A program made the translations under genes and the position numbers. From Alphaproteobacteria bacterium (GTDB taxonomy: Bacteria; Pseudomonadota; Alphaproteobacteria; RS24): a stretch of DNA of 41,981 nucleotides. Location of the stretch: contig JAKMDW010000093.1 of the NCBI GenBank assembly GCA_022426245.1, forward strand, positions 1-41,981, written 5' to 3'. The notes below the pieces were generated by a model, which was given only the letters and a program-made list of their open reading frames with translations, was not told the origin of the DNA and searched no databases. Every line of letters begins with the position of its first letter. Within the stretch, counting starts at the first letter, position 1. This document shows, in pieces, positions 34,581 through 38,252 of this stretch.

Positions 34581-34590
34581 AATGGCATTG

Positions 34591-35565
34591 ATGTCCCGAA
34601 AAGCAAAAATAACAGGCATAGGCAGTTACCTTCCGGCTGAAATCATCAGCAATAATGAATTGTCAAAAACCCTCGACACCAGCGATGAGTGGATTACCAC
34701 GCGCTCGGGTATTAAACAGCGCCACCGTGCCGCAGAGGGGGAGGCGACCAGCGATATTGCCTTACAAGCGGCGCAGGCCGCGCTCAGCGATGCCGGCATC
34801 ACGGCGCAAGATATTGATCTGATTATCGTCTCGACCACGACGCCGGACTTGACCTTTCCCGCCACCGCCGCGCTGGTGCAGAAGAAGCTCGGCATTAATC
34901 ATGGCGCAGCTTTCGATGTTCAGGCCGTCTGCTCAGGCTTTGTCTATGGGCTGAGTGTCGCCTCGGCTATGGTTGAAACCGGACAGGCGCAGCGCGTCTT
35001 GCTCATCGGTGCGGAGACCATGACGCGCTTGCTCGATTGGGAAGATAGGACAACGGCGGTTTTGTTTGGCGATGGCGGTGGGGCCGTGGTGCTTGAGGCA
35101 ACAGAGATAACGACGCCCGACGCGCCGCATATTGTCGGCTCCTATTTACGCTCCGATGGCAATCTGACCGATTTGCTTTATGTCGATGGCGGCCCATCCA
35201 CGACCGGCACGACCGGTAAACTGCGTATGCAGGGGCGCGAAGTCTATCGCCATGCAGTCGGCAATATCGCTGAGGCGATAGAAAGCCTGCTGCAAAAGCA
35301 TAACTTGACCGTCGATGATATTGATTGGTTTGTGCCGCATCAGGCCAATAAGCGCATTATTGATGGCGTCGCTAAAAAGATTGGCTTACCGGTTGAGAAG
35401 ACGGTTGTTACCGTGCAAGAACACGCCAATACATCGGCGGCATCGATACCGTTGGCCTTGCATGATTTGGTGAAAAGCGGCCGCGTGGCGTCTGGGGATG
35501 TGTTGATGCTCGAAGCCATGGGCGGGGGCTTGACCTGGGGCGCCAATCTGGTCATTTGGGCATAA
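34591..35565 (+). CDS. fabH: Beta-ketoacyl-ACP synthase III
   Basis: FabH starts fatty acid chains by condensing acetyl-CoA with malonyl-ACP. The 324-residue protein has catalytic Cys114 in AFDVQAVCSGFVYGL, then His in DWFVPHQANKRIID and Asn in VQEHANTSAASIP. I choose ATG 34591 because AAGGAG (34575-34580) is ten bases upstream; the ATG at 34582 would be only one base from it. It is followed by ihfA after 77 bases. Confidence 0.96.
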   Translation: MSRKAKITGIGSYLPAEIISNNELSKTLDTSDEWITTRSGIKQRHRAAEGEATSDIALQAAQAALSDAGITAQDIDLIIVSTTTPDLTFPATAALVQKKLGINHGAAFDVQAVCSGFVYGLSVASAMVETGQAQRVLLIGAETMTRLLDWEDRTTAVLFGDGGGAVVLEATEITTPDAPHIVGSYLRSDGNLTDLLYVDGGPSTTGTTGKLRMQGREVYRHAVGNIAEAIESLLQKHNLTVDDIDWFVPHQANKRIIDGVAKKIGLPVEKTVVTVQEHANTSAASIPLALHDLVKSGRVASGDVLMLEAMGGGLTWGANLVIWA

Positions 35566-35642: not shown

Positions 35643-35948
35643 ATGGTGGGCAAGACAGTAACGCGTTCAGATTTGAGCGAAATTGTTTACAATGCGGTGG
35701 GTTTATCGCGAAACGAGTCGGCGCAAATCGTTGAAACCGTTTTAGACGAAATTTCCGATGCCCTCATTCGGGGTGAAGATGTCAAACTTTCTTCTTTCGG
35801 CTCCTTTTTGGTGCGCCATAAAAACGGTCGCATGGGGCGCAACCCTAAAACCGGCGAAGAGGTTCCAATTGATCCGCGCCGCGTTCTCAGTTTTCGGGCC
35901 AGCCATGTCCTCAAAGAAAAAATCAATAAAATGTCCGGACTCGGCTAA
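35643..35948 (+). CDS. ihfA: Integration host factor subunit alpha
   Basis: IhfA pairs with IhfB to bend DNA at specific sites in replication, recombination and transcription. The 101-residue protein has the HU/IHF fold: [41 protein letters not shown], then the arm [20 protein letters not shown], with the intercalating Pro. The alpha subunit is preferred over HU or IhfB because of the GEEVPI and the linked MerR gene. It ends nine bases before the MerR-family gene. Confidence 0.95.
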
Positions 35949-35957
35949 AATCATTAC

Positions 35958-36356
35958 ATGAGCTCGGGTAAATCAGACAGTGCCTTTCGCACCATAAGCG
36001 AGGTAGCAGAGGCGCTTGCGGTGAAGCCACATGTGCTGCGCTTTTGGGAAAGCAAGTTTGACGAGATCCAACCGGTCAAACGCGCAGCGGGGCGGCGCTA
36101 TTATCGTCCCGAGGATGTTGCGCTGATTGCCGGTATCAAACATTTGCTGCACGAGCAGGGCATGACGATTAAGGGCGTGCAGAAGCACCTGAAGGAAAAT
36201 AGTGTCAGCGACGTGCGCGGCTTGGCGGCGGGCGAAAAACCAAAAGGCGGTAATGGTGCGCTCAATGAGATCGGTCTCAATCGCCGCAGTAAGCTGGAAG
36301 CGGCGCGGCAAAACTTGCTGCAGGCCCGCATTTTGCTGACCGGCGAAGATAATTAG
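35958..36356 (+). CDS. MerR-family transcriptional regulator
   Basis: A 132-residue DNA-binding protein. The winged-helix part is at the N-terminus: [40 protein letters not shown] and [19 protein letters not shown]. This is followed by [13 protein letters not shown] and a dimerising helical tail. No metal-binding cysteines are seen, so it is not a metal sensor of the MerR or SoxR type. The ihfA-merR pair followed by tRNA-Pro is a conserved alphaproteobacterial neighbourhood; the regulon is not known. Confidence 0.92.
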
Positions 36357-36378
36357 AAGTCGTTTTGCCCGTCTGGCT

Positions 36379-36414
36379 TTTTTAGCGGAAACTTTCTAAG
36401 ACACGGGCAGTCGG
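36379..36414 (+). repeat. 36-bp direct repeat, copy 1
   Basis: The 36 bases here are identical to 36527-36562, 148 bases downstream, and include TTTTTAGCGGAAACTTTCTA, which carries the spacer and -10 of the tRNA-Pro promoter. The next bases (CGCTTAGCGC) resemble the start of the tRNA (AGCGTAGCGC in copy 2), but no tRNA follows here. The -35 position reads CTGGCT, poorer than copy 2. Confidence 0.9.
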
Positions 36415-36526
36415 CGCTTAGCGCGATAAAAGGGCTTGGCGCGCCGAGCGCGCCTTAACCCCGCCTTTCGCCAGCGAAATCCCCGCAAGGGCTGAAGTCG
36501 GCAGTTAGAACAACCCATCTCTTGCC
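36415..36526 (+). other. 112-base segment between the two repeat copies
   Basis: No gene is seen. It contains a near-palindrome around CTTGGCGCGCCGAG (about 36435-36448) with further GCGCGCC. The segment may be a remnant of a duplicated tRNA unit or a short transcript driven by copy 1; the sequence does not decide. Confidence 0.35.
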
Positions 36527-36549
36527 TTTTTAGCGGAAACTTTCTAAGA
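36521..36549 (+). promoter_or_regulatory. tRNA-Pro promoter
   Basis: CTTGCC (36521-36526), a 17-base spacer and CTAAGA (36544-36549) sit just before the tRNA. They match the alphaproteobacterial housekeeping pattern (CTTGAC, then a CTANA-type -10) at five of six positions in the -35. Transcription would start a few bases before the mature 5' end. Confidence 0.55.
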
Positions 36550-36562
36550 CACGGGCAGTCGG
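36527..36562 (+). repeat. 36-bp direct repeat, copy 2
   Basis: Second copy of the repeat at 36379-36414. It ends three bases inside the tRNA-Pro gene, so the duplicated unit covers promoter, leader and the first tRNA bases. Confidence 0.9.
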
Positions 36563-36636
36563 AGCGTAGCGCAGCCCGGTAGCGCACTTGTCTGGGGGAC
36601 AAGGGGTCGTGGGTTCGAATCCCGCCGCTCCGACCA
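36560..36636 (+). tRNA. tRNA-Pro (anticodon GGG)
   Basis: A 77-base tRNA with encoded CCA. The acceptor stem CGGAGCG (36560-36566) pairs perfectly with CGCTCCG (36626-36632), followed by ACCA. The anticodon arm CTTGT / ACAAG encloses CTGGGGG, giving anticodon GGG. The T arm contains GGGTTCGAATCCC. A GGG proline tRNA after ihfA-merR is a conserved alphaproteobacterial position and a known type of integration site, though no integrase or attachment repeat is seen here. Confidence 0.97.
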
Positions 36637-36656
36637 TTTATTGACTGGAGAAGAAC

Positions 36657-36737
36657 ATGTCTGCCATTTTGCCCATCGTTATTTTTATCGTCGTCATTAT
36701 CGCACTGAACATTTTTCAGTTCGGGCGTGCAGATTAA
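36657..36737 (+). CDS. 26-codon single-pass membrane smORF
   Basis: ATG 36657 opens a 26-residue frame ending TAA 36735-36737. It starts MSAILPIVIFIVVIIALNIF and ends QFGRAD. TGGAG (36646-36650) lies seven bases upstream. The peptide is a single membrane helix of about 18 residues with a short polar C-terminus. It begins 20 bases after tRNA-Pro. Similar tiny ILPI...GR-D type proteins occur behind tRNA-Pro in other alphaproteobacteria as far as I recall, which I cannot verify here. Function unknown. Confidence 0.6.
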   Translation: MSAILPIVIFIVVIIALNIFQFGRAD

Positions 36738-36816
36738 AGCCAAGCCATCAGCCGACCGTCTCGTCTCGACGGCTTTACGCCGAAAAACCGCCTCGTTTGT
36801 ACAAGGCAAAGCGTGC

Positions 36817-37098
36817 TCACCCGTCTGGTGAGCGAGTGTCTTTCGTGTCCGGTCGTTGCATCCAATAGATGATGGCGGCGGCGGGAACGACCCAAGCGAC
36901 ACCGGTAATCAAATAATAGAAGAACTCGATAATGCCGTTTTCCGGCACGCTGGAGGTCACGGCGACGGTCATCACAATCATCGCGTAAAACACGATCAGG
37001 GCGAGCATCAGCACCAGCCCGATGAGCTTGCGAATGCGTATCGGCAACCACGGTTTATTGAAGGGCTTCTCGGATTTCGGTTCTGATGCGTTTGACAT
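36817..37098 (-). CDS. DUF2842 membrane protein
   Basis: A 93-residue protein with two membrane helices. The first begins IGLVLMLALIVFYAMIVMTV; the second is FFYYLITGVAWVVPAAAIIY, followed by the characteristic WMQRPD near the end. Those features define the alphaproteobacterial DUF2842 family, of unknown function. I use ATG 37098, since the longer frame runs back into the opposite-strand ctaA region. A GCTCACC/GGTGAGC hairpin (36815-36833) overlaps its stop. It is divergent from ctaA. Confidence 0.85.
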   Translation of the reverse strand: MSNASEPKSEKPFNKPWLPIRIRKLIGLVLMLALIVFYAMIVMTVAVTSSVPENGIIEFFYYLITGVAWVVPAAAIIYWMQRPDTKDTRSPDG

Positions 37099-37184
37099 GA
37101 CGCTGATGTAACATGAAGCGGCCCGCTGCTCTAGCGATGTTTGGTCGCAAGGCGCTGTGCCGGTGAAACGCCTATATAGAAACC

Positions 37185-38252
37185 ATGAATAAAAACGCTT
37201 TATCTGCGCCCAGCGCATCCGCCGCGTCTGATCGTCAAATTGCCATTTGGCTGTTTACCGTTGCCGGTTTTGTGATGTTGATGGTGCTGGTCGGCGGCCT
37301 GACGCGGTTGACCGATAGCGGGCTTTCGATCACCGAATGGGCGCCGATACGCGGGGCGCTGCCGCCGTTCAGCCATGCCGATTGGCTGGTCGAGTTTGAG
37401 AAATACAAGCAAATACCCGAATACCAACTGGTCAATCTGGGCATGAGCATGGCCGAGTTCAAATTCATTTATTGGTGGGAGTGGGGGCATCGCTTTTTGG
37501 GACGCATTGTCGGCTTGGTGTTTTTCCTGCCGTTTGTCGTTTTCCTCGCGCAAAAGAAAATTAGCCGCGCGCAACTGCCGCCACTGCTTGGCCTGTTTGC
37601 ACTCGGTGGCCTGCAAGGGTTTATGGGGTGGTATATGGTCGCCAGCGGCCTGACTGAGCGGGTTGATGTCAGCCAATACCGCCTCGCCATGCATCTTGGG
37701 CTGGCACTGATTATTTTCGCTTGCAGCGTTTGGATGGCACTTACCTATTGGCGCGGCAATGCCGGTGAGGGTCGCGTCACCGCGCACTCAAAATGGGCGG
37801 CGTTTATTGTCGTGGCGGTGCTGGCGCAATCGCTGATGGGCGCACTGGTCGCGGGCATTAATGCCGGCAAAACCTATACAGATTGGCCGCTGATGGACGG
37901 TGATTTTATCCCCTCCGGCTTGTTTGATATGCAGCCTTTCTGGCTCAACTTTTTTGAGAACCATCTGACCGTTCAATTTGACCACCGCATGATTGCCTAC
38001 GCGCTCACGGCGCTGATTGGCTGGCATATTTACCGCGTGCTGAAATCGGGCAGTGATAAGCCTGATGGCGGCGCGGCGGCGCTGTCGGCCAAATGGCTGG
38101 GCGCAGCTTTGGGGCTGCAGGTCATTCTGGGCATAAGCGCGCTGATGCTTGCCGTGCCGATAGCATTGGGCGCGGCACACCAGCTTGGCGCGGTGCTGTT
38201 GCTGGCTATCGCGGTCACGCACTTGCATATTCTTTACAAACAAACGGTTTAG
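37185..38252 (+). CDS. ctaA: Haem A synthase (type 2, COX15-like)
   Basis: CtaA oxidises the methyl group of haem O to the formyl group of haem A for cytochrome c oxidase. The 355-residue inner-membrane protein has about eight helices and the family blocks VGGLTRLTDSGLSITEWAPI, YWWEWGHRFLGRIVGLVFF, LGGLQGFMGWYMVASGL and the second-half FENHLTVQFDHRMIAY, with haem-ligand histidines in helices. The repeat architecture and the EWGHR / QFDHR motifs are typical of the alphaproteobacterial and mitochondrial type. Confidence 0.96.
   Translation: MNKNALSAPSASAASDRQIAIWLFTVAGFVMLMVLVGGLTRLTDSGLSITEWAPIRGALPPFSHADWLVEFEKYKQIPEYQLVNLGMSMAEFKFIYWWEWGHRFLGRIVGLVFFLPFVVFLAQKKISRAQLPPLLGLFALGGLQGFMGWYMVASGLTERVDVSQYRLAMHLGLALIIFACSVWMALTYWRGNAGEGRVTAHSKWAAFIVVAVLAQSLMGALVAGINAGKTYTDWPLMDGDFIPSGLFDMQPFWLNFFENHLTVQFDHRMIAYALTALIGWHIYRVLKSGSDKPDGGAAALSAKWLGAALGLQVILGISALMLAVPIALGAAHQLGAVLLLAIAVTHLHILYKQTV

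Follow-up and report, generated by a model that had tools for sequence, protein, structure and literature searches.

How can a frame of 26 codons lying directly behind a tRNA gene be recognized as a gene, and what might so short a product do? The question arises at positions 36657–36737 (forward strand, stop codon included) of a stretch of 41,981 nucleotides (contig C74; hereinafter the window) from a 1.8 Mb alphaproteobacterial genome, whose named near relatives are PS1-clade/‘Rhodobiaceae’ MAGs. According to the list of open reading frames of the window, this small open reading frame (smORF) begins with the ATG at 36657, ends with a TAA at 36737 and specifies the 26-residue product MSAILPIVIFIVVIIALNIFQFGRAD. 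The preliminary description had reported a frame of this length with a TGGAG ribosome site, 20 bases behind a tRNA, and the coordinates match: the Shine-Dalgarno-like TGGAG read from the sequence occupies 36646–36650 (+), and the tRNA ends at 36636. Among the 298 ATG-started frames of 20–35 residues on both strands of the window the smORF ranks first in hydrophobicity, and it is the sole one of the eight most hydrophobic to carry an upstream GGAG, GAGG or AGGA core. A GGAG block directly precedes its ATG in all 11 members from the window's genus, and one of the three cores is present 5′ of the start in 23 of 35 diverse members. No stable RNA fold was found at the initiation region (z +1.26).

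The alternative that this is a chance open frame in the tRNA trailer, giving rise to no product, draws on its length, which by itself lies within chance, and on its being known here from sequence alone. The pattern of substitutions makes that alternative scarcely credible. The 11 same-genus copies have a dN/dS ratio of 0.100 and the 23 copies from the order one of 0.108, with group g6 (three genomes) showing a higher value of 0.277. Changes in the genus copies number 222, 91 and 557 at the first, second and third codon positions, respectively, the third position thus changing most, and a pN/pS as low as that of the smORF was reached by none of 300 column shuffles of the genus alignment and none of 100 of the order alignment. 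The length also stays constant over 12 family labels, even where the tRNA is not nearby, which again speaks against a chance frame. A lack of conservation, with indels breaking the frame, had earlier been named as the counter-evidence to look for; when we checked, the frame had survived. The proposal of an overlooked membrane smORF is thereby strongly borne out: the frame is conserved, evolves under codon-level selection, holds its length and, within the genus, retains its start site. Judged by its molecular evolution, the smORF is a real, unannotated and selectively maintained gene.

Within the window's order, for which the genome set is the same 28 genomes as for its family, a profile search finds the smORF in 23, which include 14 of the 15 genomes of good quality; four of the five genomes without a match (G011, G012, G015, G026 and G027) are less than 80% complete. 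A search of 61 genomes likewise recovers it in 23 of the 28 same-family genomes, G051 being left out since its match falls inside a 483-residue frame. An earlier class-wide search gave matches at E up to 1 in 128 of 385 genomes, mostly partial ones inside long frames; short frames of full length were retained, along with L046, which is nearly full-length. Using profiles built from confirmed members, a class draw of 385 gave 33 matches, of which 27 were accepted (G109, G181, G235, G246, G299 and G380 were removed), the weakest accepted match (4.5e-5) standing well clear of the next one (0.0045). A draw of 349 more complete class genomes, sharing members with the former, gave 28 matches and, after removal of G235, again 27 carriers. 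In a phylum-level draw 13 of 249 genomes matched, G705 was removed, and the named genomes are all Alphaproteobacteria. The distribution is patchy within Alphaproteobacteria, accepted members falling under 12 family labels (f1, f4, f10, f49, f54, f63, f91, f116, f121, f146, f167 and f193, with G513 as an accepted carrier of f10). Naming these families by 16S rRNA yielded a match in 4 of 15 genomes; for f146 the best match, at 90.1% to a Rhodovulum plasmid, is too distant for a name. The consensus peptide found no homolog in a plasmid collection.

A short and hydrophobic peptide might also be the hydrophobic toxin of a type I toxin–antitoxin system. We disfavour this reading as very improbable, since the gene is under strong purifying selection, is inherited with housekeeping genes, and occurs in one accepted copy per genome; furthermore, the tRNA is the sole Rfam match between 35900 and 37300. 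The one exception to the single copy, genome G019, has the smORF twice (L021 and L026), 3 bases from the end of one contig and 41 bases from the start of another, and these are probably one locus split by assembly.

The peptide is uniform in length, with 26 residues in 33 of 35 members chosen for diversity and 27 and 28 in the remaining two. Alignment columns 4–17 are hydrophobic, N18 is invariant in the 35 aligned rows, and M1, G23 and D26 are each at least 90% conserved; the polar GRAD end remarked upon in the preliminary description proves to be one instance of a conserved C-terminal G-R-x-D. Being 26 residues long with a single predicted membrane span, and showing protein-coding selection (dN/dS 0.10), the product would belong with the small single-span membrane proteins (fewer than about 50 residues, one hydrophobic span). 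Lysine or arginine occurs at positions 2–8 in none of 36 rows and at positions 18–26 in 34 of 36. The positive-inside rule is the established basis for topology calls, and by this rule the distribution of basic residues places the tail in the cytoplasm. Residues ~3–17 would accordingly span the membrane, with the N-terminus on the outer side and L-N-x(3)-[FY]-G-R-x-D as the cytoplasmic tail. The best reading of the product is that it represents a new family of inner-membrane proteins with a single span. The fixed length together with the LN...GRxD tail suggests a specific docking site, and therefore a peptide that binds a larger membrane protein at a set position; its probable role is that of an accessory helix in a membrane complex.

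Comparisons with Pfam, NCBIfam, PHROGs and PDB sequences gave nothing above chance. The best NCBIfam hit (E 0.039) involved 2 of 26 members, with no significant consistent family match; for PHROGs the best E was 0.014, and no family was hit by more than 2 of 35 members. In the PDB sequences the A3 profile gave two chance-level matches to the membrane segment of TLR3 (best E 0.34), and with the A5 profile there was no match at E 10 or below. The photosystem II subunit PsbI (PF02532), which shares a weak hydrophobic similarity with the peptide, was rejected as its identity: the window peptide scores 13.7 bits where the cut-off is 27 (E 0.062), and just 2 of 26 members match at E up to 1. Searches of a literature library found nothing on conserved 26-residue alphaproteobacterial small membrane proteins, on a small membrane protein with the heme A synthase CtaA, or on alphaproteobacterial small proteins with tRNA-Pro in ribosome profiling; ribosome profiling in Caulobacter is reported to have added 94 new small ORFs (PMC4117421).

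The tRNA-Pro gene (anticodon GGG; 36560–36636, +; ARAGORN and Rfam RF00005) is the probable first part of the smORF transcript. In all 11 genus members it ends 19–44 nt 5′ of the smORF ATG, the spacers differing by indels, and a pattern scan of the window found no terminator in the 20 bases between the two. On this ground it is very likely that the smORF is co-transcribed with tRNA-Pro(GGG) in the window's genus. Moreover, spacers of 19–33 nt in seven of the members leave hardly any room for a separate smORF promoter. A CTTGC-TTTT...GAAA...TA block is kept immediately 5′ of the tRNA in 11 of 11 genus members, and from it we propose a promoter for the shared transcript at 36521–36549 (+; CTTGCC, 17 nt, CTAAGA). 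As a scan with an E. coli-type consensus found no sigma-70-like promoter in the stretch scanned, this putative promoter is drawn from conservation alone. A terminator-like hairpin lies downstream of the smORF at 36814–36834 (+), being one of two such sites in the scanned stretch, where 0.7 are expected by chance. Transcription from the promoter would yield a single RNA with the smORF as the trailer of tRNA-Pro(GGG); 3′-end processing of the tRNA would then release a short message whose 20-nt leader bears the TGGAG, and ribosomes would start on it at 36657. Taken together, we hold with high confidence that the smORF is a gene, that its product is a membrane helix and that it is transcribed with the tRNA in the window's genus.

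The read-through expression envisaged in the preliminary description thus fits the geometry within the genus but does not extend to the whole family. Across 36 neighbourhoods (35 fetched and the window, picked for diversity rather than at random), tRNA-Pro(GGG) lies within 300 nt upstream of the smORF in 12, 0.7–1.5 kb upstream in three, 2.4–5.5 kb upstream in three and on the opposite strand in three, and is absent from the stretch examined in 15. Since the tRNA is near in just 12 of the 36, read-through is a local habit and not a family-defining trait.

The same region shows further features. A 53-nt direct repeat (36372–36424 and 36520–36572; 92% identical, 148 nt apart) contains the putative promoter together with roughly 13 bases from the 5′ end of the tRNA-Pro gene, its upstream copy resembling a disrupted duplication of that 5′ end. 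Long antisense frames run over the tRNA and the smORF (36396–36902 and 36530–36637, both on the minus strand), including ‘MVGAAGFEPTTPCPPDKCATGLRYAP...’ from the complement of the tRNA; in our judgement automatic annotation will probably take such frames for proteins. In genome G036 (L081) GGTCAGTT units are repeated in tandem just beyond the stop codon of the smORF.

The gene neighbourhood offers pointers to a potential partner. Upstream of the tRNA lie fabH (34582–35565, our reading of the sequence), ihfA (35643–35948, Pfam Bac_DNA_binding) and a gene for a MerR-type regulator (35958–36356, Pfam). Downstream, a DUF2842 gene (36817–37101, −, taken from an internal ATG; the longer frame 36817–37218 scores 63.4 bits against Pfam PF11003) converges on the smORF and is followed by ctaA/COX15, coding for heme A synthase (37185–38252, +; Pfam PF02628, 360.5 bits). 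Over the 36 loci, DUF2842 is within 300 nt of the smORF in 25, about 1.4 kb away in two and absent from the stretch in nine, while ctaA is within ~2 kb in 28. The smORF and DUF2842 are convergent at most loci and on the same strand in L091, L094 and L105. In f116 (L094, L091) a lysozyme-like frame (cluster c44; the name is our reading) comes after the smORF on the same strand, ~230 nt from the smORF start.

The likeliest docking partners would therefore be sought among the products of these neighbours, namely DUF2842 and CtaA, and the peptide might be an accessory helix of heme A or aa3-type oxidase assembly, aiding the synthase or passing on heme A. We regard this function as possible and put it forward tentatively. 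It is consistent with the smORF adjoining DUF2842 or ctaA in f1, f4 (G165), f10, f49, f54, f116, f121 and f167, with its remaining next to DUF2842 despite a group-dependent relative orientation, and with G080, which is devoid of DUF2842 and has the smORF directly upstream of ctaA. Against it, the smORF is located elsewhere in four families: in f63 it is upstream of folB, from which an SDR gene usually separates it; f146 and f91 have it ahead of a cation antiporter gene, with SDR or uvrC beyond; and in f193 SDR/folB are ~2 kb downstream. DUF2842 and ctaA are still paired in f63 and f146 though the smORF is not with them. The common location may also be an old gene order, given that rplM/rpsI are nearby too. 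Due to this, DUF2842/CtaA as the partner is a leading guess to which we give limited credence.

Co-occurrence across genomes is uninformative for ctaA, which 60 of the 62 tested genomes possess with or without the smORF. DUF2842 is present in 26 of 28 smORF-positive genomes versus 15 of 34 smORF-negative ones (Fisher P 4e-5, relatedness ignored) and, per family label, in 9 of 11 positive versus 9 of 28 negative (Fisher P 0.007, relatedness likewise ignored), the negative genomes being mainly the first-listed ones rather than a random set. G735 was scored negative in these tests and later turned out to be positive; the recount is 27 of 29 versus 14 of 33, and moving it would strengthen the association. 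The smORF-positive genomes without DUF2842 are G080 and G117. In 8 of the 15 DUF2842-bearing smORF-negative genomes DUF2842 and ctaA form a divergent pair without an adjoining smORF (gaps of 185–329 nt), and no diverged copies of the smORF were found beside DUF2842 at the 15 loci of this set by a model that detects it at 17 of 26 DUF2842 loci of positive genomes. DUF2842 itself has no match in the PDB, and a search of the literature library found no paper on it; from its setting it looks like a candidate heme A/oxidase gene.

The shifts of the smORF between unrelated genomic places are in keeping with a modulator of membrane properties that responds to stress or energy state and needs no single partner, much as E. 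coli YohP, which the peptide resembles in size and build (27 residues, one span in YohP). The tight length, the invariant N18 and the near-invariant GRxD tail point instead to a specific contact, and we consider such a modulator rather doubtful. Returning to the docking helix, its fullest version would be an ancient 26-residue helix, with an invariant asparagine and a G-R-x-D end, serving as a dedicated accessory of heme A synthase/DUF2842 while the alphaproteobacterial respiratory chain is assembled, and produced in certain lineages from the tail that processing leaves of a tRNA-Pro transcript; as a whole, this scenario is unlikely, and we offer it as a speculation.

Whatever its partner, the locus presents a gene of about 26 codons under strong selection, across at least 12 alphaproteobacterial family labels, for which the libraries searched hold no model. 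Gene callers usually reject frames this short, which accounts for the missing model. The smORF is hence a ready case for what a lone helix does, and it draws attention to DUF2842, which is divergent from the adjoining ctaA in many genomes.

Known systems offer precedents for several aspects of this locus. KdpF and CydX are very small proteins with one span, docked on a large membrane complex and encoded in the operon of their partner. The smORF product shares the single-span helix, and docking is so far a proposal for it; unlike KdpF and CydX, it has candidate partners only. A protein gene transcribed behind tRNA is seen in the thrU...tufB operon of E. coli; in the case of the smORF, the gene so placed comprises 26 codons, its start lying 20 nt beyond the tRNA, and the tRNA link is confined to a part of the family. 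Closest in build is YohP, which is likened to the smORF peptide by its single span and near-equal length rather than by sequence, and which differs in gene setting and host class. YohP is reported to insert after release from the ribosome, being too short for co-translational capture by SRP (PMC7549839), and membrane and metabolic effects have been reported for it (PMC12719787). Since the smORF chain would be similarly too short for SRP capture during translation, it may, purely by analogy with YohP, enter the membrane after its release.
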